Assembly (NCBI GenBank): GCA_030824115.1
Contig: JAVBYI010000009.1
Coordinates: 1-64,000 of the forward strand
Length of the DNA: 64,000 nt
Origin: Rhodocyclaceae bacterium
GTDB lineage: Bacteria > Pseudomonadota > Gammaproteobacteria > Burkholderiales > Rhodocyclaceae
Direction: 5' to 3'
The notes under the pieces were generated by a model. The model made no database searches and was not told where the DNA came from. It saw only the letters and a program-made list of their open reading frames with translations. Made by a program: the position numbers and the translations under genes. Positions 5,348 to 63,391 of the stretch are shown in pieces (the stretch's first letter is position 1; each line of letters opens with the position of its first letter).

Positions 5348-5496
5348 AGGAAATCCTGCGGTGCAGTTCAAACAGTGACGCGACTTGCTGATTGGCAATA
5401 CAACAAGCCAGTCCAAGACGCGGAAAGCCGAGCATGATATCCAAGAAAGTCCGACCGAGTCAAACATTTCTTTTTGTTGGCCGACAAAAACACATT

Positions 5497-5520
5497 GCCG
5501 TCCCGCCAGCGCCGACTTTT
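5497..5520 (+). repeat. Dispersed 24-nt element, copy 1 (intergenic, C-type)
   Basis: Full match to the consensus, with C at position 7. It lies between divergent rplM and the OsmC-like gene, 56 bp before the latter's start codon. Confidence 0.85.
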
Positions 5521-7828: not shown

Positions 7829-9559
7829 ATGCGCGCCAGTCAATTCTTCATCGCCACCCTGAAAGAAGCCCCCACCGACGCCGAGATCGCCTCCCACAAG
7901 CTGATGACCCGCGCCGGCATGATTCGCAAGCTGGCAGGGGGCATCTACAGCTACATGCCGATGGGCCTGCGGGTGATCCGCAAGATCGAGGCAATCATCC
8001 GCGAGGAAATGAACCGCGCCGGCGCCATTGAATTGCTGATGCCGCTGGTGCAGCCCGCCGAACTCTGGCAGGAAACCGGTCGCTGGGACAAGATGGGGCC
8101 GGAAATGCTGCGCGTGAAGGACCGCCACGACCGCGACTTCATCATCCAGCCGACCTCCGAGGAAGTCGTCACCGACATCGCCCGTGGCGAAATCCACAGC
8201 TACCGCCAGTTGCCGAAGAACTTCTATCACATCCAGACCAAGTTCCGCGATGAGCGCCGCCCGCGTTTTGGCGTGATGCGCGGCCGCGAGTTCACCATGA
8301 AGGATGCCTACTCCTTCGACCGCGACGAGGCCAGCGCAGAGAAAAGCTATCAGGCCATGTATGCCGCCTATGTGAAGATTTTCGAGCGACTGGGTCTGAC
8401 ATTCCGCGCCGTGCGTGCCGATACCGGCGCCATCGGCGGCTCGCTGTCACATGAATTCCAGGTGATTGCCGATACGGGCGAGGATCTGCTGGTTTACTGC
8501 CCCGACTCCGACTATGCGGCCAACATCGAACTGGCCGAAGCATTGCCGCTACTTGCCGTCCAGCCAGCGCCGACATTTGTGATGGAGAAAGTCGCGACGC
8601 CCGACACCATCCGCTGCGAGGACGTCGCCAAGCTGCTCGGCCTGCCAATCGAGTGCACCGTGAAATCCATCGTCATTGCTGCGGACACGCCACTGGGCGC
8701 CGAAGTCTGGCTGCTGCTGATTCGCGGCGACCACGAGCTCAATGAGGTCAAGGCCGGCAAGCTGCCGGGGCTCGAAGGTGGTTTCCGCTTTGCCACCGAA
8801 CAGGAAATCATCGAGCACTTCGGCTGCCCGCCCGGTTATCTCGGCCCGCTCAACACAAAGAAACCGGTACGCATCGTCGCTGACCGCACGGTCGCCAACA
8901 TGGGCGATTTCGTCTCCGGCGCCAATGAAATCGGTTTCCACATCCAGGGCATCAACTGGGGCCGCGACCTGCCGGAGCCGGAAATCATTGCCGACATCCG
9001 CAATGTCGTCGAAGGCGATCCCTCGCCAGACGGCAAGGGCAAGCTGGCCATCCAGCGCGGCATCGAGGTCGGTCATGTCTTCTTCCTCGGCACGAAATAT
9101 TCGGCCGCGATGAACTGCACCTATCTGGACGAAACCGGCAAGCCGCAAACGATGGTGATGGGCTGCTACGGCATCGGCGTCACCCGGCTGGTGGGCGCGG
9201 CCATCGAACAGAATCACGATGAAAAGGGCATCATCTGGCCCGACAGCATTGCACCCTTTACGGTGGCCATCTGCCCGGTCGGCTGGGGCAAATCCGAAGC
9301 CGTGCGGCAGGCTGCCATCGAACTGTACGAAAAGCTGGTCGTCTCCGGTATCGATGTCATTCTCGACGACCGCGATGAACGTCCCGGCGTCATGTTTGCC
9401 GACTGGGAACTGATCGGCGTGCCGCATCGCATCACCATCGGTGATCGCGGCCTCAAGGAGGGTATGGTTGAGTACCAGCACCGGCGCGACCAGGAGGCCA
9501 CCAAGGTACCGCTGGCCGATATCGCGGCACTCGCCCGTCAGAAGGCATGCGGCGTCTAG
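7829..9559 (+). CDS. proS: Proline--tRNA ligase (prokaryotic type with INS domain)
   Basis: Class II synthetase for tRNA-Pro, 576 aa, E. coli-like ProS architecture: catalytic motifs 1-2 ([25 protein letters not shown]), an inserted YbaK-like editing domain at about 250-390 (ECTVKSIVI...), motif 3 ([13 protein letters not shown]) and a C-terminal anticodon-binding domain. Repeat copy 2 encodes AVQPAPTF at about residues 243-250, in the linker between the catalytic core and the editing domain, where length and sequence vary in the family. The 3' end overlaps the lytic transglycosylase gene by 13 bp. Confidence 0.97.
8555..8578 (+). repeat. Dispersed 24-nt element, copy 2 (in proS)
   Basis: Diverged copy (CAGCC instead of CGCC, CATTT end) keeping the exact 11-nt core CCAGCGCCGAC. 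Read in the AVSPAPTF frame within the linker before the ProRS editing domain. Confidence 0.75.
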
Positions 9560-10152
9560 GGCTGCTTTGCTGCCTGTTCTGGACAGCACATGTCTGGGCC
9601 GGCGCACAACAATACGAGCCCCTGGCCGCCAGTGTGCAGGCCGCCTTGCACGCTGCCGTGTCAGACAAGTCGGCGCCCGAACCGCGCTTTGACAGCATCG
9701 AGGAAAAGCTCGACTGGCTAACGGAAATGTCGCGGCGACTCGAAAAGCGCATGCCGGATCGTCAGGGCCGTCTGGAATTTCTCAAGACGGTGCGCTACGA
9801 GGCCCAGCGCGCCGGACTGGATCCGCATCTGATCATGGGACTGATTCAGGTCGAAAGCGGCTTTCGCAAGCACGCCGTATCCAGCGCCGGGGCGCGCGGC
9901 TACATGCAGGTGATGCCCTTCTGGGTCAGGCTGATTGGCAGCCGCGACAGCAACCTCTTCCATCTGCGCACCAACCTGCGCTTCGGCTGCACCATCCTGC
10001 GCCACTACCTCGATATCGAGAAAGGCGATCTCTACCGCGCCCTCGGCCGCTACAACGGCAGCCTCGGTCGCCCGGAGTATCCCAACATGGTCCGTGCAGC
10101 CTGGGAAAGACACTGGGCCTGGGGCCCGCGCGTCATCCAGGCGCGGCAGTAA
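9547..10152 (+). CDS. Lytic transglycosylase, SLT domain
   Basis: Periplasmic enzyme that cleaves the MurNAc-GlcNAc bond of peptidoglycan. It has a cleavable signal peptide ([20 protein letters not shown]) and an SLT-type goose-lysozyme fold with catalytic Glu E103 in LIQVESGF. The [17 protein letters not shown] and [11 protein letters not shown] motifs follow. At 201 aa it is a short single-domain form. It starts inside the proS 3' end, so expression is coupled to proS. Its stop codon uses the first As of repeat copy 3. Confidence 0.88.
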
Positions 10153-10175
10153 AAAGTCGGCGCTGGCGGGACGGC
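10152..10175 (-). repeat. Dispersed 24-nt element, copy 3 (C-type, supplies a stop codon)
   Basis: Full consensus in the 36-bp gap between the convergent transglycosylase gene and ffh. The preceding TAA stop ends on the first base of the element. Confidence 0.85.
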
Positions 10176-10188
10176 AGACAATTAACGA

Positions 10189-12555: not shown

Positions 12556-13770
12556 ATGGCTTCGCCAAAAAAAGACGACGGGCAAAAAACCTTTGCCTGG
12601 GAAGGCAAGGATAAGCACGGCAAGATCGTTCGCGGTGAATTACGCGCCGCGACTGAGACGGTCGTCAGAACAACCCTGCGCCGTCAAGGTATTTTGGTCA
12701 GCAAGGTCAAAAAGATGGGGGCCACGGGGGGCGGCACAGTCACCGATAAGGACATCACCCTGTTCACGCGTCAGCTGGCCACCATGATGAAGTCGGGAGT
12801 TCCTCTGCTACAGGCATTCGACATTGTTGGCAAGGGCGCCTCCAATGCTGCGGTCGGCAAACTGCTGTCTGACATCAAAACTGACGTTGAAACCGGTTCC
12901 GCGCTTAATCAGGCATTTCGCAAATATCCACTGTACTTCGATCAGCTTTATTGCAACTTGGTCGAGGCGGGTGAGCAAGCCGGCATTCTGGACTCCCTAC
13001 TGGATCGCTTGGCCATCTACAAGGAAAAGACTCAGGCCATCATAGGCAAAATCAAGAGTGCGCTGTTTTATCCGATCTCGGTACTCGTGGTTGCATTCAT
13101 CGTCACGGCCGTCATCATGATCTTCGTCGTGCCTCAATTCAAGGATATTTTTAGCAATTTTGGCGCTGAGCTACCCGGCCCGACACTCGTTGTCATCGGC
13201 ATCTCAGATTACTTCACCAAGTACTGGTACATCGTCTTTGGTAGCGCCTTTGGCGGGGTGTATAGCTTTTTGTACACTTGGAAGCGGTCCGTAACCATGC
13301 AGATCTTCATGGACAAACTGGCCCTGAAGCTCCCGGTTTTCGGCTCTGTCATCCGCAAAGCCACTATTGCCCGCTGGACGAGAACCCTATCAACGATGTT
13401 CGCCGCCGGGGTCCCGCTTGTCGAAGCACTGGATTCCGTTGGTGGCGCCTCGGGTAACTACGTTTATCGCGAAGCCACCAAACAGATCAAGGCAGAGATT
13501 AGTACGGGATCCAGCCTGACTGTCGCGATGCAGAATGCTGACGTCTTCCCCAGCATGGTGATCCAAATGGTTGCCATTGGCGAAGAATCTGGCCAGCTTG
13601 ATGCAATGACCGGCAAGGTCGCCGACTTTTTTGAGGCTGAAGTCGATGATGCGGTTGATGCGCTTTCCAGCTTGATGGAGCCGATAATCATGGTGGTTTT
13701 GGGCATCCTCATCGGTGGCATCATCGTCGCCATGTACCTGCCGATCTTCAAGATGGGTGCCGTCGTCTAA
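12556..13770 (+). CDS. pilC: Type IV pilus inner-membrane platform protein PilC
   Basis: Polytopic platform protein of the type IVa pilus motor. The 404-aa protein contains two GspF/T2SSF repeats (TLFTRQLATMMKSGVPLLQAFDIV near residue 75 and ARWTRTLSTMFAAGVPLVEALDSV near 275), each followed by membrane helices, and ends with the typical MVVLGILIGGIIVAMYLPIFKMGAVV. A strong AAGGAG lies seven bases before the ATG. The ATPase gene pilB that usually precedes it is not here; pilD follows after 8 bp. Confidence 0.95.
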   Translation: MASPKKDDGQKTFAWEGKDKHGKIVRGELRAATETVVRTTLRRQGILVSKVKKMGATGGGTVTDKDITLFTRQLATMMKSGVPLLQAFDIVGKGASNAAVGKLLSDIKTDVETGSALNQAFRKYPLYFDQLYCNLVEAGEQAGILDSLLDRLAIYKEKTQAIIGKIKSALFYPISVLVVAFIVTAVIMIFVVPQFKDIFSNFGAELPGPTLVVIGISDYFTKYWYIVFGSAFGGVYSFLYTWKRSVTMQIFMDKLALKLPVFGSVIRKATIARWTRTLSTMFAAGVPLVEALDSVGGASGNYVYREATKQIKAEISTGSSLTVAMQNADVFPSMVIQMVAIGEESGQLDAMTGKVADFFEAEVDDAVDALSSLMEPIIMVVLGILIGGIIVAMYLPIFKMGAVV

Positions 13771-13778
13771 ACCTGCGG

Positions 13779-14624
13779 ATGATTGCCATAGACCCATTCA
13801 CCCTGGCTGCGATCAGCAGCATCTTCGGTCTGCTGATCGGCAGCTTCCTCAATGTCGTCATTCATCGCCTGCCGATCATGATGGAGCGCGAATGGCAGGC
13901 CCAGTGCGCTGAACTGACGGGGAATACCCCCGCCCAGCAGGAACCCTTTTCCCTGGTCGCCCCGCGCTCCCGCTGTCCGCATTGCGGCCACCAGATCGGT
14001 GCGCTGGAAAATATCCCGATCCTCAGCTACCTGCTGCAAAAAGGTTGTTGCAAAGGCTGCGGCAAGGGCATCAGTCCCCGTTATCCGCTGGTTGAGGCGT
14101 TGACCGGACTCGTTTTCGGCTATGCCGCCTGGCGCTTTGGCTTCAGTCTGGCGGGCGTTGGTGCCATGCTCTTTCTGTCCATCATGATCGCCCTGACTTT
14201 CATCGATGCCGATACCCAGTTGCTGCCCGATGACCTCACGCTACCCTTAATCTGGGCGGGGTTGCTGATCAACCTTTTCCACACCTTCACGACCCTGCCC
14301 AACGCCGTCATCGGCGCAGCCGTCGGTTATCTGGCGCTTTGGTCGGTCTATTGGCTGTTCAAGCTCGCCACTGGCAAGGAAGGCATGGGCTATGGCGACT
14401 TCAAATTACTCGCCGCCATCGGCGCCTGGCTCGGTTGGCCGCTGTTACCGCTGGTGATTCTCCTGTCGTCTCTGGTCGGCGCCGTCATCGGTGTCGCTCT
14501 GATCGTGCTGGCCAAACGTGGCCGCAACGTGCCGATGCCCTTTGGCCCTTATCTGGCCATTGCTGGCGTGATTGCCCTGTTTTGGGGCAATGAACTCAAT
14601 CGAACCTATCTGGGACTCATGTAG
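13779..14624 (+). CDS. pilD: Prepilin peptidase / N-methyltransferase
   Basis: Bifunctional inner-membrane aspartyl protease that trims type IV prepilins after the glycine and N-methylates the new N-terminus. The 281-aa protein has the zinc-binding cysteines C66, C69, C91 and C94 in the cytoplasmic loop and both aspartate motifs, FIDADTQLLPD near 141-151 and GYGDFKLLAAIG. It would process PilA-type pilins, and also the MSHA minor pilins encoded at 41-43 kb. Confidence 0.96.
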   Translation: MIAIDPFTLAAISSIFGLLIGSFLNVVIHRLPIMMEREWQAQCAELTGNTPAQQEPFSLVAPRSRCPHCGHQIGALENIPILSYLLQKGCCKGCGKGISPRYPLVEALTGLVFGYAAWRFGFSLAGVGAMLFLSIMIALTFIDADTQLLPDDLTLPLIWAGLLINLFHTFTTLPNAVIGAAVGYLALWSVYWLFKLATGKEGMGYGDFKLLAAIGAWLGWPLLPLVILLSSLVGAVIGVALIVLAKRGRNVPMPFGPYLAIAGVIALFWGNELNRTYLGLM

Positions 14625-15604: not shown

Positions 15605-15618
15605 TTTCCCCGGCGCTT

Positions 15619-15642
15619 GCCGTCCCGCCAGCGCCGACTTTT
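15619..15642 (+). repeat. Dispersed 24-nt element, copy 4 (intergenic, C-type)
   Basis: Full consensus between DUF502 and aspS, ending 21 bases before the aspS start codon; it would therefore be in the aspS leader if transcription reads through. Confidence 0.85.
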
Positions 15643-18243: not shown

Positions 18244-21957
<3,714 letters not shown>

Positions 21958-21960
<3 letters not shown>

Positions 21961-22575
21961 TTTCTTTTCTGGCTCATCCAGCCATGACCCAATGACTTCC
22001 TCGGCCTCTTCAATACCGGTCTTCTTCAGGCTTGAAAACAGTTGCAGCGTGAATGGTACGCCGGGGAAATCGGCGCTGGCGAGACGGCGTGCATCGGCCA
22101 GCGTCTTGGCCTGTTCCTGACGCGTCAGCTTGTCCGCCTTGGTCAGCAGGCAGTGAATTGGCTTGCCGGTTTCGCCAAACCAGCCGATCATCTTCCGATC
22201 AAGCTCGGTAAAGGGGCGGCGCGCATCCATGATCAACACCAGCCCGACCAGCGCCTCACGCCGTGTCAGGTAGTGTTCCAGCAGGCCCTGCCACTGGCGG
22301 CGCACGGTTTCAGGCACTTGGGCATAGCCGTAACCAGGCAGATCGACCATCGCGGCGCCATTCTTCAGGCGGAACAGATTGATCAGCTGGGTGCGCCCTG
22401 GCGTCTTGGAAACATAGGCCAGACGCGTATGGTCAGCCAGCGTATTGATGGCAGATGACTTGCCGGCATTGGAGCGTCCGGCAAAGGCAATCTCCGCCCC
22501 GCCGGCCTGGGGCAACATGTAGGGATCGGCAACAGAAATTTCGAATTCGGCGTGGCGGAATAGATTGGATGTCAT
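21958..22575 (-). CDS. engB: Ribosome biogenesis GTP-binding protein EngB (YihA/YsxC)
   Basis: Essential small GTPase for 50S subunit assembly, 205 aa. It has G1 GRSNAGKS at 33-40, G3 DLPGYGYA, G4 TKAD and the C-terminal FSSLKKTGIEEA. Repeat copy 6 encodes RRLASADF at about residues 162-169, in the poorly conserved stretch before the last strand and G5 (FSS). It is divergent from the cytochrome c4 gene, a common betaproteobacterial pair. Confidence 0.95.
22065..22088 (-). repeat. Dispersed 24-nt element, copy 6 (in engB)
   Basis: T-type copy with the AAAAGT end changed to GGAAAT; the rest matches. Read as RLASADF within EngB. Confidence 0.7.
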
Positions 22576-26131: not shown

Positions 26132-26842
26132 ATGCACGCGCGCTTGTCAATTTTCCACGCACTGTGGTCACACACCTGCTTGCTATGTGGCATGGTCAGT
26201 GACGCTGCCGCCGTCTGTCCTGGCTGCCTGGACGACCTGCCGCGCCTCGCCTCACCGCGCTGTCCGATCTGTGCCACGCCCTTGGCCGTCCCGGCTCCCA
26301 CCTGCGGTGCCTGCCTGACCCATCCGCCCGCCTACGATGCCACGCTTGCCGCCTGGCGCTACGGCTACCCGCTCGATGCACTGATCCACTTGCTGAAATT
26401 CGGCCACGGACCAGCACTGCGCCGTTTCGCCAGCGCCGACTTTCTGGCCCACGGCATGCTGCGCGATACCCCTCATGCAGGGACGATCATCCTGCCTGTA
26501 CCCTTGTCGCACCAACGTCTGCGCGAACGCGGCTTCAATCAGGCGCTCGAACTGGCCCGACCGCTGGCCAGAATCCTGAAGTTGCCGGTTGACGACACCA
26601 GTCTGACGCGCGCGCGCAACACGCCACCGCAAAGCCTGCTGCCCTGGCGGGCACGCAAAAAGAATGTGCGCCATGCCTTTGCCTGTACCAGCGATTTTTC
26701 CGGGCAATCCATCATCGTCGTCGATGACGTGATGACCACCGGCGCCACGCTCGATGCCGTCGCCCGCACCCTCAAGGATCATGGTGCAATCCGCGTCACC
26801 AACTGGGTCGCCGCGCGGGCGGTGAGGGATAACGCTATTTGA
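26132..26842 (+). CDS. comF: ComF family phosphoribosyltransferase-like protein
   Basis: ComF-type protein, needed for DNA uptake in naturally competent bacteria. The 236-aa protein has an N-terminal zinc finger (CLLCG, CPGC, CPIC, CGAC) and a type I PRTase domain with LPVPLSHQRLRERGFNQALELA and the PRPP loop IVVDDVMTTGATLD. Repeat copy 7 encodes RRFASADF at about residues 97-104, between the LLKFGHGPALRR motif and the PRTase core. The 3' end overlaps mshN by 8 bp (convergent). Confidence 0.92.
   Translation: MHARLSIFHALWSHTCLLCGMVSDAAAVCPGCLDDLPRLASPRCPICATPLAVPAPTCGACLTHPPAYDATLAAWRYGYPLDALIHLLKFGHGPALRRFASADFLAHGMLRDTPHAGTIILPVPLSHQRLRERGFNQALELARPLARILKLPVDDTSLTRARNTPPQSLLPWRARKKNVRHAFACTSDFSGQSIIVVDDVMTTGATLDAVARTLKDHGAIRVTNWVAARAVRDNAI
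26421..26444 (+). repeat. Dispersed 24-nt element, copy 7 (in comF)
   Basis: T-type copy with two small changes at the ends and the exact 11-nt core CCAGCGCCGAC. Read as RFASADF in ComF. Confidence 0.75.
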
Positions 26843-27956
26843 GTTTCTGCTCGACGGACGAGGCCATGTCGGGCGGCAGATTGCCCACTGCCTTGGCCTT
26901 GGTGTAAGCCTCTTTTGCCCCGGCGGCGTTGCCGGTCTGCTCCAGTGACAGGCCGAGACCAAACCACCAACGGCCCTCGTTGGGCCGCACCTGCAGGGCG
27001 GCCCTGAAACGCTCGGCTGCCTCGGCAGGACGCTGCTGTTTCTGCAAAAGATAGGCAAACAATCCCTGATAGTCGGCATCGTGCGACGCGTGGACGGCAA
27101 AGCGTTCGAGCGTCTGCACGGCGCTCGCCGCATCGCCCTGCTCGAATTGCAGGCGGGCAACGATGTTGGCCCAACTGCTCTGCGTCGGATCAAGAGTGAG
27201 ACCCTGCTCGGCCACCTGACGCGCCACATCCCAGCGCTTGGTCGCCACCAACACGGACAGATAGCCCTGGCGCGCTCGCGCCAGTTCGGGATCAAGCTCC
27301 AGAGCACGCTTGAACCAGGTCAGTGCTGTCTCGTTATCTCCGCTTTTGACAGCCTGCATAGCCTTGCGATATTCCGCTTCGGCAAGTTCACGCCCCTGCC
27401 CGGCCTTGGTGCGCTTGTCAATCTGGGTCTCTTCAGCCAGCGCCTGCGGCGCAGACGCCGGGATAGGCGCCGACTTGGACACAGCCACAGGCGGTGCCGT
27501 GACGGGTTTCGTGATCGGCAGTATTTTGGGCGACGGTAATGAAGACGCTGGGGCAGGTTTGGCCGACGGCTTCGGCGATGTCTGGCCGACCAGCATCGAG
27601 AGTTTCATCTCGGCCGCCCCGGCCGGTACGGCTGGCGCAGCAGGTGCCATGGGGACCATGGGTGCCACAGAAGTCGGCGCTGGGAGAACGGCGGCAGGCG
27701 TATCCGGCACCACAACAGGTGGCGCCGGCGGTGCCGCCACCGCCGGCACATCGGGAGAAAGGGTCCGCAACAGCAACAACACCATCGCCATCAGCAGTGC
27801 CCCGGCGCCCATGCCAATCGCCAGCATGCGCAGGTTTTGCCGTTGCACCTGCCCGCCCGGCGGCAAGGTACGCATGCGCAAGGGCAGGCCGGCGCGTTCC
27901 TGATCGCTCGCCGCGCGGGCATCAAGATCGCGCAGCATCTGGTTGATGACGCTCAT
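26835..27956 (-). CDS. mshN: MSHA biogenesis protein MshN (TPR)
   Basis: Last gene of the mshI-N operon. The start MSVINQMLRDLDAR is diagnostic of MshN/GspB-like proteins. A short cytoplasmic N-terminus, one TM helix at about 48-66 and a long Pro/Ala-rich periplasmic linker (about 70-190) lead to several tetratricopeptide repeats (about 200-373). Such proteins are thought to scaffold the pilus machine through the wall. Repeat copy 8, diverged, encodes AVLPAPTS in the linker. Confidence 0.85.
   Translation of the reverse strand: MSVINQMLRDLDARAASDQERAGLPLRMRTLPPGGQVQRQNLRMLAIGMGAGALLMAMVLLLLRTLSPDVPAVAAPPAPPVVVPDTPAAVLPAPTSVAPMVPMAPAAPAVPAGAAEMKLSMLVGQTSPKPSAKPAPASSLPSPKILPITKPVTAPPVAVSKSAPIPASAPQALAEETQIDKRTKAGQGRELAEAEYRKAMQAVKSGDNETALTWFKRALELDPELARARQGYLSVLVATKRWDVARQVAEQGLTLDPTQSSWANIVARLQFEQGDAASAVQTLERFAVHASHDADYQGLFAYLLQKQQRPAEAAERFRAALQVRPNEGRWWFGLGLSLEQTGNAAGAKEAYTKAKAVGNLPPDMASSVEQKLK
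27669..27692 (-). repeat. Dispersed 24-nt element, copy 8 (in mshN, diverged)
   Basis: Exact core GTCGGCGCTGG, but the flanks are changed (AGAA start, GAGAAC). Read in the AVSPAPTF frame as AVLPAPTS in the proline-rich linker. Confidence 0.6.
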
Positions 27957-27966
27957 GCTTGCATCC

Positions 27967-28800
27967 TCACCATGGCCACCAGCGCCGCGTCTGGATCGCA
28001 CCATCCGTATCTGCGGCTGCCGCCCGGACATGATGGCTCATTACTTGCGCCTGCCCTTCGCCAAAGGCCGCCAGCAGGGCCTTGTGCCCGAGAATATTAA
28101 TCAGGCGCGGCGTGCCACCCGAGGCGTGTGACATGGCCTTGATGGCGGCAGGCTGAAAAATCGGGGCGCCGCTGTGGCCGGCAATCCGCAAGCGCTGTTC
28201 GATGTAGTTACCGACCTCGTCGGTATCAAAGCGCAGCAGTTGATGACTGAAGGCGATACGCTGCTTCAACTGACGCGCGGAATGCGCATTCAGCATCTCA
28301 TCCAGCTCGGTCTGGCCGAACAGGACGATGTGCAGCAATTTTCGTTTCTCGGTTTCCAGGTTGGAGAGAAGGCGCAGACTCTCCAGCGTCAGACGCGGCA
28401 TGGTTTGCGCTTCGTCGATACAAATCACCACCTTCTTGCCCGCCCGTGCCAGATCGAGCAGACGGCGGTTCAGGCGCTTGATGACATGTGCTGCATCGGG
28501 CTCGCCATCAGCAGTGCCAAGGTCATCAGCCACCTCGTGCAGAAAGGCACGCGGCTCCATCTGTGGGTTGGGCAGATAGGCGGCTTTCCACTCGGGCGCC
28601 AGTTCGGCAAGGAAATTGCGGCACAACAGCGTCTTGCCGGTGCCGATTTCGCCGACCACCTTGATGAAACCTTCACCGCTTGCCAGGGCAAAATGCAGCA
28701 GATTGAGGCCTTCGAGGTGGCTGCGGCTCGGATAGATGAACTCCGTATCAGGCGTAATCCCGAACGGAATTTGCGTCAACCCGAAGTGGGCGAAATACAT
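27967..28800 (-). CDS. mshM: MSHA biogenesis ATPase MshM (ExeA/GspA-like)
   Basis: AAA+ ATPase of the ExeA/GspA/MshM family, 277 aa, starting MYFAHFGLTQIPFGITPDTEFIYPS as all members do. Walker A is GEIGTGKT (50-57), Walker B is VVICIDEAQ, and the sensor region GTPRLINILGHKALLAAF is intact. There is no C-terminal peptidoglycan-binding domain, in contrast to ExeA. Together with MshN it probably helps the secretin pass the wall. Confidence 0.92.
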   Translation of the reverse strand: MYFAHFGLTQIPFGITPDTEFIYPSRSHLEGLNLLHFALASGEGFIKVVGEIGTGKTLLCRNFLAELAPEWKAAYLPNPQMEPRAFLHEVADDLGTADGEPDAAHVIKRLNRRLLDLARAGKKVVICIDEAQTMPRLTLESLRLLSNLETEKRKLLHIVLFGQTELDEMLNAHSARQLKQRIAFSHQLLRFDTDEVGNYIEQRLRIAGHSGAPIFQPAAIKAMSHASGGTPRLINILGHKALLAAFGEGQAQVMSHHVRAAAADTDGAIQTRRWWPW

Positions 28801-28805
28801 GCGGC

Positions 28806-30563: not shown

Positions 30564-30964
30564 TTTTTCTTCTCTCCTTTGACGGCATTCATGCCAATCG
30601 ACCCTGCCGCCTTGTCAGCACCGACTTTCATCACCTTTTCTGCCGCCGGCATCAGCCGCAGAATTTCGCGGCCCTCCGTACCAAGCAGCACCACATGATC
30701 TTCTTCCACCTTGACGAGACGTGCCTCGCCGACCTTGCCGCCCAGTTGCACCACTTCACCGTTGATCACCGCCGCCGGCCGTCCCTTGCCATTGCGGTTG
30801 AGAATGACCGATTGCAGGCCAATCGCTGCCGGGACCGCCGCCGCACTCGCAGCTGCGCCCGCTGGCACCAACGCCTGAGGCGGTGGTCGCGTCGGGTCCG
30901 CCAGTTGGGCCCAGGCAGGGCTGGTTAGCAGGAGGGGCAGGGCCAGCATCAAACGGCGAGCCAT
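30560..30964 (-). CDS. mshK: MSHA biogenesis protein MshK
   Basis: Small periplasmic protein, 134 aa, with a signal peptide (MARRLMLALPLLLTSPAWA) followed by LADPTRPP, the hallmark of MshK/PilP-like proteins. A beta-rich domain contains LQSVILNRNGKGRPAAVINGEVVQLG. It probably links the inner-membrane MshIJ complex to the MshL secretin. A degenerate repeat copy encodes KVGADKAAG near the C-terminus. Confidence 0.85.
   Translation of the reverse strand: MARRLMLALPLLLTSPAWAQLADPTRPPPQALVPAGAAASAAAVPAAIGLQSVILNRNGKGRPAAVINGEVVQLGGKVGEARLVKVEEDHVVLLGTEGREILRLMPAAEKVMKVGADKAAGSIGMNAVKGEKKK
30606..30629 (+). repeat. Degenerate copy of the 24-nt element (in mshK)
   Basis: Aligns end to end with the consensus with five mismatches, and the frame (KVGADKAA) matches the KVGAGETA form used by other coding copies. 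Possibly a decayed or pre-element sequence; not counted among the 19. Confidence 0.35.
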
Positions 30965-31668
30965 ATCGACTCCAGACTCAGGGTGTAAACCGTCAGGGTC
31001 AGTTCGCTGACAGGGTATTGGCTACTGAGATTCATGCCGCCCCAGAGCAGTTTTTGCGGGCCGTTTTCCAGCGCATTCACGTAGGCGAGCAAGTCGTTAT
31101 AGCTACCGGCAATCCTGATCTCAATGCCATGCTTGAAGATGTTGCTGCCGGCAGCCTCGGGGAGCTGCTTCGCTTCGGCAGGCTTTCCATCGGGCGCCTT
31201 TTTCTCGACCGGCGGGGTAATCAGTGGCTGCGGCGGCAGTGTCGCGAGACTCACCAGTGTCAGGCCACGATGACGACTGAGCAGGGACTGCAGCAGCACG
31301 GGCGCCTGCCTGGGCGAGACCAGCACGCCATCGAAGCCATGGATATCGCGATCGGCGTCAACCAGCGCCTGTTGCACTTGCGCCAGTGCCGCACGATTGG
31401 CTGCATCGGGATCGCTATCCTGCTTCGCCAGCGTCAGAAGCTGCGCCTGCAATGTGGTCTGTTCACCTTGCTGCTGGGTAATCGTCTTGGTCAGGCGGGT
31501 TTTTTGCAGTTGGGCCGGCTCGATCCAGAAGGTATAGCCACCAAACAGAATGGCAAACAGCACGGCACCGATCACCAGATATTTCTCGCGCGGCTGCAGG
31601 GTGGCAAAGCGCTGCGCCCAGCCCTGCCAGTTTTGTTGCAGCTGCTTGATGCCTTGCGTGCTCGCCAT
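30949..31668 (-). CDS. mshJ: MSHA biogenesis protein MshJ (PilO-like)
   Basis: Inner-membrane alignment-complex protein. Cytoplasmic N-terminus of about 30 residues, one TM helix at about 31-49 (YLVIGAVLFAILFGGYTFW), coiled coil to about 100 and a ferredoxin-like periplasmic domain (FKHGIEIRIAGSYNDLLAYVNALENGPQKLLW). The ATG at 31668 overlaps the upstream stop (TGATG). Confidence 0.88.
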   Translation of the reverse strand: MASTQGIKQLQQNWQGWAQRFATLQPREKYLVIGAVLFAILFGGYTFWIEPAQLQKTRLTKTITQQQGEQTTLQAQLLTLAKQDSDPDAANRAALAQVQQALVDADRDIHGFDGVLVSPRQAPVLLQSLLSRHRGLTLVSLATLPPQPLITPPVEKKAPDGKPAEAKQLPEAAGSNIFKHGIEIRIAGSYNDLLAYVNALENGPQKLLWGGMNLSSQYPVSELTLTVYTLSLESIWLAV

Positions 31669-32387
31669 CAACCGGCACCTCCGCTGGCATTCGCCGCAAA
31701 AGTCGGCGCTGGTGAGACGGCACTGCGGTTGTCCGCTTGCGCCGCTGCCTTGCCATCGAACGTTGGGATCAGCATGAATTCATGCCACTGTGGCACGGCG
31801 ACCGTAGCCGCCGTGGCCCCCGCAGTAGGCCCTTTTGCCGCTGGGCGCTCAAGCTTGAGTGCCGCGAACGTCTGTCCCTGAAAAGCGCTTTCCTTGTTCA
31901 GGCGACGGATGTATTCGGGGATCAACGCAGGATCGGTTGTATTGCCGCGAATCTCCATGCCGCGGCCCGCCGTCCTGACGGTAAAACCGGTCAGCCACAG
32001 GCCGCTCACGCTCTGACGGGAAAAACCGCGCAGGTATTCCGCATAGGAGTGGGCGTCGGGACCGACACTGCTGCGCAAGGTCGCCAGCACTTCGCCGCGC
32101 AGCGACAGCAGTTGACGTTTGGCCGCCAGCGTCTGCTCAAGACGCGGATCGGGCTTGCGGGCCGCCACGCGCTGGCCCATCGTCGTCACCTGGTCGCGCA
32201 TGACCTTTAGCTGCGTTTCGGCAGCAGCGGACTGAGTCGTCAGCGCCGGCAGGGTGCTGCGCTCCATCATGCCGAGGGCAACCACCCCCGTGGCGAGGAG
32301 CAAGCCGCCGATCACCACGTTCCCGAGCGCGAGCCAGTCGTGCTTTCTTTCCAGTGCGGGATCGTAGAGGTTGATGTGCTGAGCCAT
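31668..32387 (-). CDS. MSHA biogenesis protein MshI2 (PilN-like)
   Basis: PilN-like inner-membrane protein, 239 aa, with the MAQHINLYDPAL N-terminal motif that binds the PilM-like partner. A TM helix at about 22-42, coiled coil and a PilN-type domain (ISGLWLTGFTV-like, GNTTDPALIPEYIRRLNKESAFQGQTF) follow. Its last 20 residues are Ala/Pro/Gly-rich and are partly made by repeat copy 9 (AVSPAPTF), so the element forms most of a disordered tail. Confidence 0.87.
   Translation of the reverse strand: MAQHINLYDPALERKHDWLALGNVVIGGLLLATGVVALGMMERSTLPALTTQSAAAETQLKVMRDQVTTMGQRVAARKPDPRLEQTLAAKRQLLSLRGEVLATLRSSVGPDAHSYAEYLRGFSRQSVSGLWLTGFTVRTAGRGMEIRGNTTDPALIPEYIRRLNKESAFQGQTFAALKLERPAAKGPTAGATAATVAVPQWHEFMLIPTFDGKAAAQADNRSAVSPAPTFAANASGGAG
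31698..31721 (-). repeat. Dispersed 24-nt element, copy 9 (in mshI2)
   Basis: T-type copy with one change (GGTGAGAC). Read as AVSPAPTF ten residues before the stop codon. Confidence 0.8.
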
Positions 32388-33408: not shown

Positions 33409-33432
33409 AAAAGTCGGCGCTGGCGAGACGGC
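33409..33432 (-). repeat. Dispersed 24-nt element, copy 10 (intergenic, T-type)
   Basis: Full consensus in the 146-bp gap between pccA and mshI, at the boundary between the propionate module and the MSHA operon. It is the only intergenic copy of the T type. Confidence 0.85.
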
Positions 33433-33460
33433 AAATCATCACCAGCGCCGAGAGTTGACG

Positions 33461-38015: not shown

Positions 38016-38025
38016 TTCCGCACTC

Positions 38026-38049
38026 GCCGTCCCGCCAGCGCCGACTTTT
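38026..38049 (+). repeat. Dispersed 24-nt element, copy 11 (C-type, overlaps the mcm stop codon)
   Basis: Full consensus between mcm and meaB. On the mcm strand the TAA stop is followed directly by the element, two of the three stop-codon bases being part of it. Confidence 0.85.
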
Positions 38050-40316: not shown

Positions 40317-40988
40317 ATGAATGCAAGACAGCCCACCGACAGCCTTGGCTCCCCCGCCCTCTATGAACAGGTCGCGGAACGCCTGCGCACCCGCATCTAC
40401 GCCCACGAACTGCCCCCCGGCGCCTGGATCGACGAACAGACGCTGGCCGACGAATTCGGCATCTCCCGCACGCCCATGCGTGAGGCGCTCAAAGTGCTGG
40501 CCTCCGAAGGCCTGGTCATCCTCAAGCCGCGGCGCGGCTGCTATGTGGCCGAAATGTCGGAGCGCGACATCGACGAAATCTTCCCCATCCTCGCCCTGCT
40601 CGAAGGTCGCGTCGCCGAGGAAGCGACGGGCCGTCTCGCCAGCGCCGACATTTCACATTTAGAGCAAATCCACGCCGAACTGGAACGCCACGGCGTCGCC
40701 AACGACGCCGACAGGTTCTTCGAAGCCAATCAGGCCTTCCACAACGCCCTGCAGCAACTCGCCGGCAACCGCTGGCTCTCGCAACTGATCGACGACACGC
40801 GCAAGTTCCTCAAACTGACGCGCCGCGACTCCCTGCGCCTCGACGGCCGCATCAGCCAATCGCTGGCCGAACATCGTGCCATCATGGCGGCGCTCAAGGC
40901 TCGGGATGCTGGCGCTGCCGCGCGGCACATGCACGATCACATCCTCTCCGGCCGAGACGCACTGATGCGCCTGCACACGCAAGGATAG
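40317..40988 (+). CDS. GntR family transcriptional regulator (FCD/FadR subfamily)
   Basis: Probable local regulator of the propionate module. The 223-aa protein has a winged HTH ([42 protein letters not shown]) and an FCD effector domain with the metal-binding acid/histidine pattern ([25 protein letters not shown]). The start at 40317 follows the promoter candidate. Repeat copy 12 encodes GRLASADI at about residues 104-111, in the linker near the beginning of the FCD helices. Divergent orientation to mcm suggests autoregulation plus control of mcm. Confidence 0.88.
40630..40653 (+). repeat. Dispersed 24-nt element, copy 12 (in gntR)
   Basis: T-type copy with a CATTT end and exact core. Read as RLASADI between the HTH and effector domains. 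Confidence 0.8.
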
Positions 40989-41043: not shown

Positions 41044-41553
41044 ATGATGCACTGCATGAGACCGCACACCACCCGACCGATCGCGCACCTGAATACGGGC
41101 TTCACAGTCATCGAACTGATTGTCACGATGATCATCATCGGCATTTTGGCGGCGGCCGCCATCCCGCGCATGAACATGCTGGGCAGCTTTGACGCTCGCG
41201 GTTTTGGCGACCAGCTTGCTGCGTGGCTGCGCTTTGCCCAGAAATCCGCACTGGCGCAACGCCGCATGATCTCGGTTGACCTGAGCACGAACCCGCCCAC
41301 CTTGCGTCACAGCATCGCGACCGTCTGCAACACCGGCGGCACCCAGATGAATGGCCCCCCCGGCTGGCGCGCCGCTGCCGCTGGCACGGCACTCGACAAC
41401 GCGCTGGGCAACACGATCTGCTTCGACAGCCTGGGGCGTCCCTACGCACCGAACCTGCTGGCCGCAACCACCAGCTTCACGGTGCGCGATAGCAACGGCA
41501 CCGCCACCCGCACCATCCAGGTCGAACCTGAAACCGGATATATCCATGATTAG
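41044..41553 (+). CDS. MSHA minor prepilin, MshC-like (FimT/GspH type)
   Basis: Type IV prepilin-like protein. Leader peptide ends in NTG with cleavage before F, followed by the hydrophobic helix FTVIELIVTMIIIGILAAAAIPRMN with Glu at +5. The segment FGDQLAAWLRFAQKSALAQRR is typical of FimT/GspH-like minor pilins, and two cysteines could close a C-terminal loop. The start could be the ATG at 41044 or 41056. First gene of the mshC-D-O-P-Q operon, so MshC by position. Confidence 0.78.
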   Translation: MMHCMRPHTTRPIAHLNTGFTVIELIVTMIIIGILAAAAIPRMNMLGSFDARGFGDQLAAWLRFAQKSALAQRRMISVDLSTNPPTLRHSIATVCNTGGTQMNGPPGWRAAAAGTALDNALGNTICFDSLGRPYAPNLLAATTSFTVRDSNGTATRTIQVEPETGYIHD

Positions 41554-41980: not shown

Positions 41981-42828
41981 TGAAAACCCAATGCGGCTTT
42001 ACGCTGATCGAGATGATCATTTCCATCGTCATCATGGGCATTGTGGCCGGCATCGTGGCCATTTTCATCAGTCGCCCGGTGGAAGGCTATATCGACAGCG
42101 TGCGGCGTGCGGAACTCACGGATGTGGCCGACCTGGCCCTCAAGCGCATGGCCATCGACCTACGCACCGCCATTCCCAATAGCGTGCGTGTTGATGGCAC
42201 CGGCCGCTTCATCGAATTCATTCCAGCCCGCGACGGCGGGCGCTATTGCACTGATTTCGACACCGGCTGCAATGCCCTCAGCTTCACTGCAGGGGGCGAT
42301 ACCTTCAGCGTGCTGGGGCCAGCGGTCAGTGTGGCGCAGGGAGATCAGGTGGTGGTGTTCAATACCGGGCAGGGCGTAGACCTGAACGTGTATGGCGGCT
42401 CCAATCGTCGCGCCATCACCGGCGCCAGTCTCGGCGGCACCGCCCTGACCTTGGGCGCAACTGCCCAGTCGGCGGACACCATTACGCTGGGCGGCGCCAA
42501 CTCCTTCACCTATGCGTCCCCCTCCAACCGCTTCCAGATCATGGCCGCCCTCAGCGCCGTGACGTATGCCTGTGAAAATGTCGGCGGTGGCGCAACGGGT
42601 ACCGGCACCTTGAGGCGCTATACCGGTTATGGTTTTTTCAGCCCGCAAACCACCGATACGGATGATCTGGGGGCCGGGCGACTGCTGGCCAACAACCTTA
42701 GCGACTGCAGCTTCTTCTACCAGACCGTGAACGCCGCCAACGGCCTCGTCAGCCTGAACATCCAGATCCGTCGAGAAAATGAATCCGTCCGCCTGTTCCA
42801 GCAATTCCATGTCGACAACATGCCCTGA
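41980..42828 (+). CDS. mshO: MSHA minor prepilin MshO-like
   Basis: Pseudopilin of 282 aa with leader MKTQCG and mature FTLIEMIISIVIMGIVAGIVAIFISRPVEGYIDSVRRAELTDVADLALKRMAIDLRTAIPNSVRV, the MshO signature (PVEGYID...RAxLTD). Four cysteines (CTDFDTGC, YACENV, SDCSFFY) suggest disulfides. Chosen ATG at 41980; a TTG three bases earlier is not needed. Confidence 0.88.
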   Translation: MKTQCGFTLIEMIISIVIMGIVAGIVAIFISRPVEGYIDSVRRAELTDVADLALKRMAIDLRTAIPNSVRVDGTGRFIEFIPARDGGRYCTDFDTGCNALSFTAGGDTFSVLGPAVSVAQGDQVVVFNTGQGVDLNVYGGSNRRAITGASLGGTALTLGATAQSADTITLGGANSFTYASPSNRFQIMAALSAVTYACENVGGGATGTGTLRRYTGYGFFSPQTTDTDDLGAGRLLANNLSDCSFFYQTVNAANGLVSLNIQIRRENESVRLFQQFHVDNMP

Positions 42829-47413: not shown

Positions 47414-47866
47414 ATGCCCACCTTTTTCCGCCATCTGCTTGCTGCCCTGCTTGCCCTGACCATCGCCCTGCCGGTGTTGGCTGCCGAACCAAATGTCGGC
47501 GCTGGCAAGGCGGCCGCTACCCTGAAGAATCGCATCGTCATCCAGGTGAACGAGGACGATGCCAAGAAGTGGATTGCGGTACTGGCCAATATCCGCAACA
47601 TTCAGGCCGACCTTGGCGCGAAAAATGTCAGCATTGCCGTGGTCGCCATCAGCTACGGCCTCGGCATGCTGACGGCCGAATCGCTCGCCGCCAACGACGT
47701 GCAGGATGCCCTCGCTACCGGTGTCGAGTTCATTGCCTGCGGCAACTCGATGAACGCGCAGAAAGTGGCAAAGGAAGACCTCGTCGATGGCGTGACGATT
47801 ACCAAGGCCGGCTACGTCGAGATCATGAAGCGCCAGCAGCAGGGCTGGACGTACCTTCGGCCATAA
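47414..47866 (+). CDS. Exported DsrE/DsrF-like protein
   Basis: 150-aa protein with a signal peptide (MPTFFRHLLAALLALTIALPVLAAEP) and a DsrE-like fold (RIVIQVNEDDAKKWIAVLANIRNIQADLGAKNVSIAVVAISYGLGML ... GVEFIACGNSMNAQKV). The cysteine in FIACGNSM is the only one in the mature part and is conserved in related exported DsrE proteins. Possibly handles sulfur in the periplasm, but this is not established. Repeat copy 13 lies right after the signal peptide (NVGAGKAA). Confidence 0.8.
   Translation: MPTFFRHLLAALLALTIALPVLAAEPNVGAGKAAATLKNRIVIQVNEDDAKKWIAVLANIRNIQADLGAKNVSIAVVAISYGLGMLTAESLAANDVQDALATGVEFIACGNSMNAQKVAKEDLVDGVTITKAGYVEIMKRQQQGWTYLRP
47491..47514 (-). repeat. Dispersed 24-nt element, copy 13 (in the DsrE-like gene)
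   Basis: Exact core, CATTT-type end, changes in the GAGAC part (CAAGGC). Read as NVGAGKAA immediately after the predicted signal cleavage site. Confidence 0.65.
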
Positions 47867-51023: not shown

Positions 51024-51026
51024 TGC

Positions 51027-51050
51027 GCCGTCGGCCCAGCGCCGACATTT
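51027..51050 (+). repeat. Dispersed 24-nt element, copy 14 (intergenic, forms a hairpin)
   Basis: Diverged at positions 7-10 so that it contains a perfect 6-bp inverted repeat GTCGGC / GCCGAC around CCAGC. Begins three bases after the DUF2721 stop, in a convergent intergenic region. Confidence 0.7.
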
Positions 51051-51993: not shown

Positions 51994-52206
51994 GATTTTC
52001 GTACGCAGTGAAGTCCGCAGGATGTTCTTGAAGGGGCGTTTAAGGTGACCGTGCCTCGCGTGTTTGTTATGCGCGGGCCGTGACCAAGAATTATGGCGAT
52101 TGAAATTCCGATGTGCTGTGACAAATGCTAAGACAATATACCAATCGGCAGTCGTGAGTGGCCGCTATGTATTGCAATTCCCACAGGCAGGTGATGGCCG
52201 ACAAGT

Positions 52207-52230
52207 GCCGTCCCGCCAGCGCCGACTTTT
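52207..52230 (+). repeat. Dispersed 24-nt element, copy 15 (C-type, overlaps the hepT stop codon)
   Basis: Full consensus at the 3' end of the HepT-like gene; two bases of the TAA stop belong to the element, as at mcm. Confidence 0.85.
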
Positions 52231-54384: not shown

Positions 54385-55164
54385 TTATTTTTTCCCTCTG
54401 ACGAACAAAACAACACCGATGACGATCATCGGCAATGAAAGCCACTGCCCCATGCTAACGACGTAGGACACGCCGAAGATGCCATGATCCGGCTCGCGGA
54501 AATACTCGCCGATCCAGCGGGCCACGCCGTAACCGATCAGGAACAGCGCCGAGACCTGCATGCGCGGCCGCTGTTTCGTCGAGAACCACCACAGTAGCGC
54601 AAACAGCAGCAGGCCCTCGCCCAGTGCCTGATACAACTGCGACGGATGGCGCGGCAGATTGTCGACGTAGGGAAAGACCATCGCCCACGAAATGTCGGCG
54701 CTCGCCGGACGGCCCCACAGTTCGCCATTAATGAAGTTGCCGATGCGCCCCAGGCCCAAGCCGATCGGCACCAGCGGCGCGATGAAGTCGGTGATCTGCC
54801 AGAACGTCATGCCGTGCTTCTTCGCATACAACCCCATTGCCACCAGCACGCCAAGGAAGCCGCCATGAAAACTCATGCCGCCCTTCCACACCGCAAGGAT
54901 TTCGAGCGGATGCTGCAGGTAATAACCCGGCTCGTAGAACAACACCTGCCCGAGCCGGCCACCGAGCACCACGCCGAGCACGCCATAGAACAGCAGATCA
55001 TCGACATGTACAGCCGTCAGGCCATGCCAGGGCTGCGCGACGGCGCGCCGCTTGCCGAGCCAGATGAAGGCCAGAAAGGCCAGCAGGTACATCAGGCCGT
55101 ACCAGCGAATCGCCAGCGGGCCGAGAGAAATCGCGATGGGATCGAATTGCGGATGGATGAGCAT
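54385..55164 (-). CDS. lgt: Prolipoprotein diacylglyceryl transferase
   Basis: Inner-membrane enzyme that adds diacylglycerol to the lipobox cysteine, first step of lipoprotein maturation. The 259-aa protein has seven TM helices and the signature [14 protein letters not shown], plus [12 protein letters not shown] and [12 protein letters not shown]. Repeat copy 16 encodes RPASADIS just after the signature, in a periplasmic loop that varies in relatives. Start [12 protein letters not shown] at 55164. Confidence 0.95.
54690..54713 (-). repeat. Dispersed 24-nt element, copy 16 (in lgt, diverged)
   Basis: C-type with changes in the centre (CTCGCCGG) and a CATTT end. Read as RPASADI right after the Lgt signature motif. 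Confidence 0.65.
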
Positions 55165-57537: not shown

Positions 57538-58439
57538 AGATTCTCCTTGATGGGCATGGCCGCCACTCGCGGTACTTTGTTGAGTTGCCAGTTTGCGAAA
57601 GCCCACGGCCAAAAGTCGGCGCTGGCGAGACGGCATTCTTCAGGTGGATTCTGGCCGAGAAAGCGCGCGGCGGCAAACAGGGCAGAGGCGGGGGCATGGG
57701 TATCCACCGGTTGCGCCAGCGTTTGTTTCGAGAGCTTCGCCCCGGTGGCATCCACCGCCACCGGCAGATGGGCATAAGCAGGCGTCGGATAACCCAGCAG
57801 GCGTTGCAGGTAAATCTGTCTTGCCGTGGAGTGAATCAGATCAGCACCGCGCACAACATGGTCGATGCCCTGATCGGCATCGTCGACCACCACCGCCAGC
57901 TGATAGGCAAAGTAGCCATCGGCGCGCAGCAACACGCAATCCCCCACGTCCTGCGACAAGTCCTGATGCTGCCGGCCTTGCACCGCATCGTCAAAATCGA
58001 TATCACCCGCGACGCGCAGGCGCCAGGCCCGGGCGCTTTTTCCGGCCGGTAGGCCGTTGCGGCAGGTGCCCGGATATACCGGCGCGCCATCGACGCCTGC
58101 CGGCGCGCCTTCCAGTTCGCTGCGCGTGCAGCCGCAGGGATAGACGGTGCCCAGCGTCTTGAGTTGTTCGAGCACCTCGCGATAGCGCGCGGTACGCTGG
58201 CTTTGCACCATCACCGGTCCGTCCCACTCGAAGCCGAAGGCATCGAGCGTGCGCAAAATCGCATCGGCATGCTCTGGCTTGCAACGTGGCGCGTCGACAT
58301 CCTCCATGCGTACCAGCCAGCGGCCGCCGCGCGCTTTCGCTTCCAAGTATGAACCGAGCGCCGCCACCAGCGAGCCGAAGTGCAATGGCCCGGTTGGGGA
58401 TGGGGCAAAGCGTCCAACCGATTGAACTAAAATGCCCAC
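57534..58439 (-). CDS. gluQ: Glutamyl-Q tRNA(Asp) synthetase
   Basis: GluRS paralogue that attaches glutamate to queuosine at position 34 of tRNA-Asp. The 301-aa protein has [13 protein letters not shown] (11-23), zinc ligands C102, C104, Y122 and C126, and KLSKQT, but no anticodon-binding domain. The GTG at 58439 gives [17 protein letters not shown]. Repeat copy 17 encodes CRLASADF at about 269-276, close to the C-terminus. Divergent from trxA by 24 bp. Confidence 0.92.
57611..57634 (-). repeat. Dispersed 24-nt element, copy 17 (in gluQ)
   Basis: Perfect T-type consensus. Read as RLASADF near the C-terminus of GluQ. Confidence 0.88.
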
Positions 58440-60658: not shown

Positions 60659-61543
60659 TTACCTCTCGCCTTCGAGGCGTACCCAGCCTTCATGCACGGC
60701 GCCAACGCGCAAGGGCAGGAACGGCGCATAGGCGGCGATGACCTGCGCGGCCTGCGTTTCCAGCACGCCCGACAGGGCCAGTTTGCCGCCCGGCGCCAAC
60801 CGCGACGTGAGCAGGGGGGCCAGCAACATCAGCGGATTGGTGAGGATGTTGGCAACCACGATATCAAAGCGCTGGTCCATCGGTGCGCTTGAGGGCGCCA
60901 GCCGCAATTCGACCTGATTGCGCGTGGCATTGTCGGCCGCCGCAGTCAGCGCCGCCGGGTCGATATCCACGCCGGCCGTCTCGCCAGCGCCGAGTTTTTT
61001 CGCGGCAATGGCAAGGATGCCGGAACCGCAGCCATAGTCGAGTACCGACACGCCGGGGGCGATCGTCGTTTCCAGCCACTCCAGACACAGGCGCGTGGTG
61101 GGATGACTGCCGGTGCCGAAGGCCAGCCCCGGATCGAGTTCGAGGTTGATCGCCGCCGGATCAGGTGCGACATGCCAGGAAGGCACGATCCACAGCCGCC
61201 CGGAAATGCGGATCGGATCGAACTGCGACTGGGTGAGCCGCACCCAGTCCTGCTCGGCCACTTCCTCAAGACTCAGGGGTGTATCCCGATCCATGCCTGC
61301 CTGCACCAGCACGGCGGCAATGCGGTCGGTCAGGTCGGGCGCCGGTTCAAACAGGGCGATAACCCGGCTGACCTCCCAGATCGGTGTCGTCGGTGAACCC
61401 GGCTCGCCGAACTGCGGCGTTTCAAGCTCGGTGCCGGCCTGGGCATCCTCAACGGAGACGGAGATCGCCCCCGCCGCCATGAGCGCATCCGAAAGCGCTT
61501 CGGCGTGCGCGGCATCGGTTTCGAGAGCGACGGAAACCCACAT
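60659..61543 (-). CDS. prmA: Ribosomal protein L11 methyltransferase
   Basis: SAM-dependent enzyme that trimethylates ribosomal protein L11. The 294-aa protein has an N-terminal L11-recognition domain, GLAFGTGSHPTTRLCLEWLE and SAM motif VLDYGCGSGILAIAAKKLGA. Repeat copy 18 encodes KLGAGETAG at about 182-190 at the point where relatives read KLGA-xxx-x-G-xDIDP, so the element is in register with conserved residues. NILTNPLM (catalytic NPxx-like) is present. Confidence 0.94.
   Translation of the reverse strand: MWVSVALETDAAHAEALSDALMAAGAISVSVEDAQAGTELETPQFGEPGSPTTPIWEVSRVIALFEPAPDLTDRIAAVLVQAGMDRDTPLSLEEVAEQDWVRLTQSQFDPIRISGRLWIVPSWHVAPDPAAINLELDPGLAFGTGSHPTTRLCLEWLETTIAPGVSVLDYGCGSGILAIAAKKLGAGETAGVDIDPAALTAAADNATRNQVELRLAPSSAPMDQRFDIVVANILTNPLMLLAPLLTSRLAPGGKLALSGVLETQAAQVIAAYAPFLPLRVGAVHEGWVRLEGER
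60975..60998 (+). repeat. Dispersed 24-nt element, copy 18 (in prmA)
   Basis: T-type copy with one change in the core (GCCGAG). Read as KLGAGETA next to SAM motif I of PrmA. Confidence 0.75.

Positions 61544-62935: not shown

Positions 62936-63391
<456 letters not shown>

Follow-up and report, generated by a model that had tools for sequence, protein, structure and literature searches.

The window analysed here, a stretch of 64 kb of the source genome, carries at 26132..26842 on the plus strand a gene for a ComF/GntX-like protein, which was matched by the profiles TIGR00201 (E 1.3e-27) and PRK11595 GntX (E 1.2e-42), neither of which reached its curated cut-off. The first-pass annotation had stated that comF carries a copy of the element, and a minus-strand copy of a 25-nt motif does lie inside the gene, with 3 mismatches from the 25-nt consensus. 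Further copies had been claimed for core genes; those in or at proS, prmA, and accB were confirmed by profile matches for all three genes, and the names engB and lgt, which came from that first reading, fit the starts of the encoded proteins. Profile matches also bore out that the window encodes comF, pilC, and pilD. The features are as follows, with mismatches counted over 25 positions.

5496..5520, minus strand: motif copy between genes, 1 mismatch
8554..8578, minus strand: motif copy in proS, 3 mismatches
10152..10176, plus strand: motif copy at a gene's end, 1 mismatch
12556..13770, plus strand: pilC, type IV pilus inner-membrane protein (T2SSF; PF00482, E 6e-68)
13779..14624, plus strand: pilD, A24 prepilin peptidase (PF06750 and PF01478)
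15618..15642, minus strand: motif copy between genes, 1 mismatch
19702..19726, plus strand: motif copy in a 214-aa gene, 2 mismatches
22065..22089, plus strand: motif copy in an engB-like gene, 4 mismatches
26132..26842, plus strand: comF (ComF/GntX-like)
26420..26444, minus strand: motif copy inside comF, 3 mismatches, encoding RFASADF on the comF strand
27669..27693, plus strand: motif copy in a TPR-protein gene, 6 mismatches
30605..30629, minus strand: motif copy in a 129-aa gene, 5 mismatches
31698..31722, plus strand: motif copy in a 239-aa, weakly PilN-like gene (PilN E 0.00036, below cut-off), 1 mismatch
33409..33433, plus strand: motif copy between genes, 0 mismatches
38025..38049, minus strand: motif copy at the end of a methylmalonyl-CoA mutase gene, 2 mismatches
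40629..40653, minus strand: motif copy in a 223-aa gene, 2 mismatches
42576..42600, plus strand: motif copy in a pseudopilin gene, 6 mismatches
47491..47515, plus strand: motif copy in a 150-aa gene, 4 mismatches
51026..51050, minus strand: motif copy between genes, 5 mismatches
52206..52230, minus strand: motif copy at a gene's end, 1 mismatch
54690..54714, plus strand: motif copy in an lgt-like gene, 5 mismatches
57611..57635, plus strand: motif copy in a 283-aa gene, 0 mismatches
60974..60998, minus strand: motif copy in prmA, 2 mismatches
63203..63227, plus strand: motif copy in accB, 0 mismatches

The window also contains a second pilus locus (26835-32387 and 41056-47361), which presumably resembles the MSHA pili and encodes a secretin, an AAA ATPase, TPR proteins, pseudopilins, and a 1366-aa DUF6701 protein.

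Scanning both strands of the window with the consensus AAAAGTCGGCGCTGGCGAGACGGCA and up to 6 of 25 mismatches gave 21 copies of AAAWGTCGGCGCTGGCRRGACGGCA, 11 on the plus and 10 on the minus strand, whereas no copy at this threshold was present in three third-order Markov shuffles of the window. In the source genome (3.0 Mb, 24 contigs) the 20-nt pattern GTCGGCGCTGGCGNGACGGC was matched 386 times on one strand and 384 times on the other with up to 3 mismatches, about one copy per 3.9 kb; the same pattern read backwards was matched 5 and 4 times (9 versus 770). The element of 24-25 nt is therefore real, and the orientation balance claimed for it holds in the window and genome-wide. Such strong over-representation on both strands is a property of uptake sequences.

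The base-by-base profile of 102 copies from 464 kb showed a 25-nt block, AAAWGTCGGCGCTGGCRRGACGGCA, with sharp edges, at which the information fell from 0.6-1.3 bits to about zero, and the flanks were not conserved. The GACGGC end was conserved as strongly as the GTCGGCGCTGG part, and conservation was loosest at two central positions and at the final one. The first-pass annotation had described an 11-nt core with looser flanks; the sharp edges and the conservation at both ends instead indicate a single long motif that is strong at either end and is not palindromic. It is longer than the cores of known uptake motifs. Summed over the block, the profile gave ~37 bits per site, a value that is inflated because the copies were chosen by match. 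Chi, KOPS, and matS-type signals carry less than this, and the figure seems too high for an unlikely alternative, namely that the motif is such a signal of chromosome organisation or repair, or a site for a nucleoid protein, and is recognised by a DNA-binding protein inside the cell.

The placement of the copies was analysed in 864 kb of the source genome, in which a home-made caller predicted 861 genes, with up to 4 of 24 mismatches allowed. Among the 214 copies found, 158 were inside genes, 38 between genes, and 18 straddling a gene end, so that copies between genes were enriched relative to the 7.6% of non-coding DNA (P 9e-7). Orientation was balanced here too, with 75 intragenic copies along and 83 against the gene and 108 plus-strand versus 106 minus-strand copies overall, and the dominant reading frames of the intragenic copies gave peptides such as RLASADF. 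Copies along the gene were shifted towards its 3' end (position 0.58 on average) and copies against it towards its 5' end (0.45; P 0.003). No two copies were within 100 bp of each other in the 864 kb, which shows that terminator-like inverted pairs are absent from this set, as had been claimed. The abundance of the motif and its largely intragenic position would suit a chromosome signal, and so would its spacing on contig C5, where one gap below 1 kb was observed versus 13.8 expected; on the other three of the four stretches the spacing was not clearly more even than chance. Chi and KOPS show polarity against GC skew, whereas the orientation of the motif had no correlation with GC skew, taken as a proxy for replication direction (rho 0.03, P 0.84, 43 blocks), and this argues against a signal of the Chi or KOPS type. 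A position both within and between genes, free of replication polarity, is a property of uptake sequences.

On contig C1 the copies left gaps of 42, 24, and 45 kb, the last two parted by a single copy, whereas in 95% of trials with random placement the second largest gap was smaller than 25 kb. The genes in these deserts had a lower GC content (0.537 versus 0.613; 100 and 279 genes) and atypical codon use. The first desert contained TnsA, TnsB-like, and TniB genes together with the Wadjet genes JetB and JetC, the second contained NeuB and a UDP-GlcNAc 2-epimerase, and the third was taken for a surface-sugar region on the basis of protein starts alone. Thus, on C1 the motif was absent from the Tn7-like/defence island and scarce in the surface-sugar locus; a 16-kb motif-free gap was also found on contig C7. 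A tag driven by uptake is predicted to be scarce in DNA of foreign origin, and under-representation in horizontally acquired DNA, a property of uptake sequences, was seen here on one contig (C1). The scarcity of the motif in long islands of the same chromosome also speaks against a chromosome signal.

Two side observations concern mobile DNA. The Tn7-like module lies beside Wadjet JetB/JetC in a motif-free segment (L087:8790-19290 and L088:722-1624; ~88.8-101.6 kb of contig C1). In addition, 72 stretches of IMG/VR viral contigs (L374-L445) contained an exact motif copy, with 58 further near-matches in 662 kb beyond one copy each, and one of them (L384) carried five copies at steps of 316-385 bp. 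These stretches may come from the ends of prophages, from host DNA, or from phages that carry the tag.

The origin of the copies was examined in alignments with homologues lacking the motif. Site-spanning homologues were available for 27 of the 158 motif genes, in 127 motif-less loci, with at most 12 alignments per gene. The alignment was gapless around the site in 72 of 125 cases; none of the motif residues was missing from the homologue in 103 of 125, and six or more were missing in 0 of 125. Identity was lower at the motif site (0.34) than over the segment (0.56), which suggests that copies settle in tolerant stretches. Three window sites were also aligned with L003, a Rhodocyclaceae MAG (RC263) that was among the matches listed for ProS in named genome contigs, with a ProS 92% identical, and from which the family of the window is deduced. 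L003 has the copies at 10152 and 15618, which differ in the 20-nt core by one and two changes, respectively, the former within differing flanks, and the proS copy was replaced without a gap; two of the three window copies checked thus stand at the same place in another member of the family. As read from the alignments of in-gene copies and these three window sites, motif copies arise by substitution, not by insertion, and an origin by point changes is a property of uptake sequences. The recent insertions that the first-pass annotation had named as evidence against an uptake signal were looked for in these alignments and were not found. These results also bear on a mobile or spreading repeat such as a REP, a MITE, or an in-gene palindromic element, an explanation that we regard as highly improbable. 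Hundreds of near-identical copies and the enrichment between genes would be expected of such a repeat; against it, motif-less homologues aligned across the site with no empty sites among the in-gene copies and three window sites compared, the motif is non-palindromic, and its sharp-edged profile has no conserved flanks.

Conservation at the DNA level was evident in comF. The motif site was recognisable in 13 of 14 aligned comF genes of the genus and lost in G014. Where residues were identical, the codons were identical in 0.825 of cases under the motif versus 0.544 elsewhere in the 14 genes, and none of the 185 other seven-codon stretches of comF reached this value (highest 0.764). These genes came from 14 of the 19 genus genomes, the other five being fragmentary, divergent, or not fetched. 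The codon conservation under the comF copy indicates that the DNA word is maintained there, as seen in one gene and in related sequences. A chromosome signal could also account for a copy kept at the DNA level in comF. The same finding weighs against the motif being a relic, that is, an ancestral uptake signal no longer working, at least in the source species, since maintenance of the comF codons extends across the genus. A relic, which we consider improbable, could explain the low counts of some genomes as decay (frame counts, defined below, of 27 in the genome of L003, 87 in G040, and 63 in G204) and would suit the variability of the pilin operons, but 80 of the 214 copies in the 864 kb of the source genome were perfect against the 24-nt pattern.

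The motif was widespread in the genus of the source genome and patchy beyond it. Of the 18 sampled congeners, 17 had 447-797 matches and one, G005, had 10. Outside the genus, G019, G026, and G055 had 774-840 matches and G040 had 91, whereas the other 38 family genomes had at most 55 and 40 genomes of other families at most 43, where controls reached 42 and 45. That most genera of the family show background counts and others have dialects would be odd for the housekeeping machinery that a chromosome signal implies.

Dialects were searched for as over-represented 10- and 12-mers in 20 relatives, with 17-60 kb of each. In G028, which had 40 matches to the source genome's own pattern, AAAGTCAGTC occurred ten times in 40 kb versus 0.04 expected, and all ten copies were followed by eight bases and then ACGGCG or GCGGCG. 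This dialect and the motif of the source genome share the frame AAAGTC-N12-ACGGC and differ in the middle. The other k-mer candidates were discarded: those of G021, G023, G024, and G029 looked by eye like tandem, CRISPR, or REP repeats, the candidate of G040 turned out to be a duplicated pair, and the remaining matches looked like chance. Among these, the REP-like CTGTGGGAGC occurred 22 times in 40 kb of G023 (L157-L158), a member of a motif-less genus. A dialect may be hidden in a motif-less genus.

With the common frame, at least 40 copies were counted in 48 of 297 family genomes (source included) from 10 of 68 genera, sums made by eye. Lower counts were 37 in G306, 26 in G170, 19 in G293, and 16 in G113, and the remainder had at most 12. 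Two genomes each of Aromatoleum, Azoarcus, and Thauera had at most 2 copies each; the match of G284 at identical coordinates suggests that it is the Aromatoleum toluvorans genome, which would place Aromatoleum in the same family. G005, G210, and G140 showed background counts despite motif-rich species in the same genera and are possible cases of loss. In other families of the order, 290 of 291 genomes had at most 8 frame copies. The exception, G384, had 18, and among its copies listed the source-type motif and the AAAGTCAGTC type stood side by side; these copies may be imported DNA or contamination.

The dialect profiles, built from 6 to 194 sites each, read AAAAGTCGGCGCTGGCggGACGGCa for the source genome's own motif, AAAGTCGGCGCTGGYG..ACGGCG for g86 and g104, with g2 alike from 6 sites, AAAGTCGACGCTGG....ACGGCG for g85, and AAAGTCAGTC........ACGGCG for g11. 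Variation was also seen within the genus of the source genome, where G016 by eye mostly uses AAACTCGGCGCTGGCGRGGCGGC, which explains its low count of the exact frame. Dialects among related genera are a further property of uptake sequences.

Parts of the machinery for DNA uptake were encoded in the source genome. ComEC was found, with its domains, and its gene contains three motif copies with up to 4 mismatches. There were 13 N-methyl pilin matches, 12 of them over the cut-off, and one pilin operon encodes a ComP_DUS-family pilin (PF16732, 45.6 bits versus a cut-off of 27.3), FimT, a PilV-like pilin, PilW, and PilY1. Together with ComF, PilC, and PilD, these proteins are competence and pilus components of the kind whose lack, according to the first-pass annotation, would have spoken against uptake. 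In the 29% of the genome that was read, no match to regular expressions for ComEA and DprA was seen. ComEC was found in 55 of 61 genomes, some of them motif-less, but not in the motif-rich G018 (83% complete).

The ComP-like pilin was one candidate for the receptor. Clear counterparts, judged by eye from a C-terminal CW...C ending (L267 of G105 was dropped because it gave no usable frame), were seen in 10 of the 15 motif-rich genomes and in 4 of the 10 motif-less ones. The pilin does not track the motif strictly: the motif-rich G011, G028, G026, G055, and G102 had no clear counterpart; G011 lacked one despite 797 matches in the dialect of the source genome, as did the complete G028. Counterparts were present in the motif-less G005, G029, G101, and G036, and the congener G005 has both ComEC and the ComP-like pilin, yet a background motif count. 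Among the four cysteines of the ComP-like pilin, C92, C133, and C142 were invariant in 14 sequences. The predicted fold of this pilin (pLDDT 83) resembled PilV (Z 11.3), a Shewanella pilin (11.0), PilE (9.5), and ComP (9.4); matches to minor pilins generally suggest that the modelled protein is a minor pilin, not ComP in particular. FimT of the same operon was also rejected, with a strong match in G002 only among 51 genomes and weak ones elsewhere. From a pilin collection of five motif-rich genomes, made with a home-made pattern (70 kept), the pseudopilin at L206:2815-3489 (minus strand) was common to the six motif-rich genomes compared. It was rejected as well: 246 of the 297 family genomes encode it, among them motif-less ones, and the motif-rich G102 does not. 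No pilin checked follows the motif distribution. On the same contig (C6) two long pseudopilins (L206:2815-3489 and 10132-10830) stand with a 1079-aa partner (L206:10818-14057); the three proteins have no informative Pfam domains and have relatives in several genera.

Comparison with the known systems drew on excerpts of the cited papers. The DUS of Neisseriaceae are described as 10-12 nt long with a required CTG core, present in very many copies, and divided into dialects among species and genera, with some genera having none (PMC3630211, excerpt). The motif shares the many copies, the dialects, and the motif-less genera within the family. It differs in having 25 nt, as had been anticipated in calling it much longer than the Neisseria signal of 10-12 nt (PMC3630211, excerpt), and also in its two conserved ends, its sequence, its density, and the lack of close inverted pairs. 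DUS are read by ComP, whereas the reader here is represented by candidate pilins only. As far as the excerpts of PMC3630211 and PMC2346458 describe the DUS, the motif is not a 10-12-mer with a CTG core related to ATGCCGTCTGAA; the nearest likeness is that its other strand reads TGCCGTCT (Neisseria ATGCCGTCTGAA from PMC2346458, excerpt).

A bias of copies to gene ends in the same direction as here is described for most, not all, of the Pasteurellaceae tested (PMC2346458, excerpt). The motif resembles the USS of these bacteria in such a bias, where equating the orientations depends on the AAAGT ends. The USS occur in two dialects with a shared GCGGT core (PMC12616744, excerpt), which is not conserved in the motif, and neither the core AAAGTGCGGT nor ACAAGCGGTC, as given in the excerpt of PMC2346458, is present in it. 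The 5' end of the motif, AAAGTCGG, resembles the USS AAAGTGCGGT (PMC2346458, excerpt); this likeness and that of TGCCGTCT to ATGCCGTCTGAA may be due to chance. The predicted USS receptor is PpdA/ComN, and DNA binding by FimT, in Legionella and others, is described as not sequence-specific (PMC12616744, excerpt). The source genome is like the FimT systems in having a FimT/GspH minor pilin in its pilin operon and unlike them in that binding there is sequence-independent, and its own FimT is weakly matched in most motif-rich genomes. On paper, the motif would work like DUS and USS, yet by its sequence, length, and core it is a member of neither. In the open-licence literature, uptake sequences were found described for Neisseriaceae and Pasteurellaceae only; neither a Rhodocyclaceae uptake sequence nor a paper on this motif was found there.

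Most of the sequence-level properties examined are those of an uptake sequence, and every alternative fails on polarity, on empty sites, or on hairpin pairs. We therefore propose, at a probability of roughly 0.8 and on genomic grounds, that the element is a DNA uptake sequence of a Rhodocyclaceae lineage. This supports the interpretation offered in the first-pass annotation: neither of the two findings that it had named against it was encountered, and the dialects, the scarcity in islands, and the DNA-level conservation in comF add to it. The motif would be a self-DNA tag on the chromosome of a lineage that is naturally competent now or was recently. A receptor on the cell surface, most probably one of the minor pilins of a type IV pilus, would bind tagged fragments, and pilus retraction would pull them in; the DNA would then pass ComEC in single-stranded form and recombine into the chromosome. 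Preferred uptake followed by recombination would let copies accumulate wherever a near-match mutates into being and is tolerated. Changes of the receptor would give rise to dialects between genera, and after loss of the receptor or of competence the copies would decay.

We further lean towards the view that this is a third, independently arisen system of bacterial self-DNA recognition. It would be based on a two-ended 25-nt signal, AAAGTC-N12-ACGGC, distributed patchily in Rhodocyclaceae, differing in dialect from genus to genus and in one case within a genus, and read by a minor pilin outside those known or by one that has been switched; it would hinder related environmental bacteria from exchanging genes. 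If the uptake reading is true, a third family whose dialects are its own would allow the rise, change, and loss of such signals to be tested independently, for which motif-rich and motif-less sister genera are available for comparison, and the variation of the motif offers a route to finding the receptor. The Rhodocyclaceae group is described as abundant in wastewater treatment (PMC7054561, excerpt), and the uptake reading, if true, predicts natural transformation with a preference for kin in this group.
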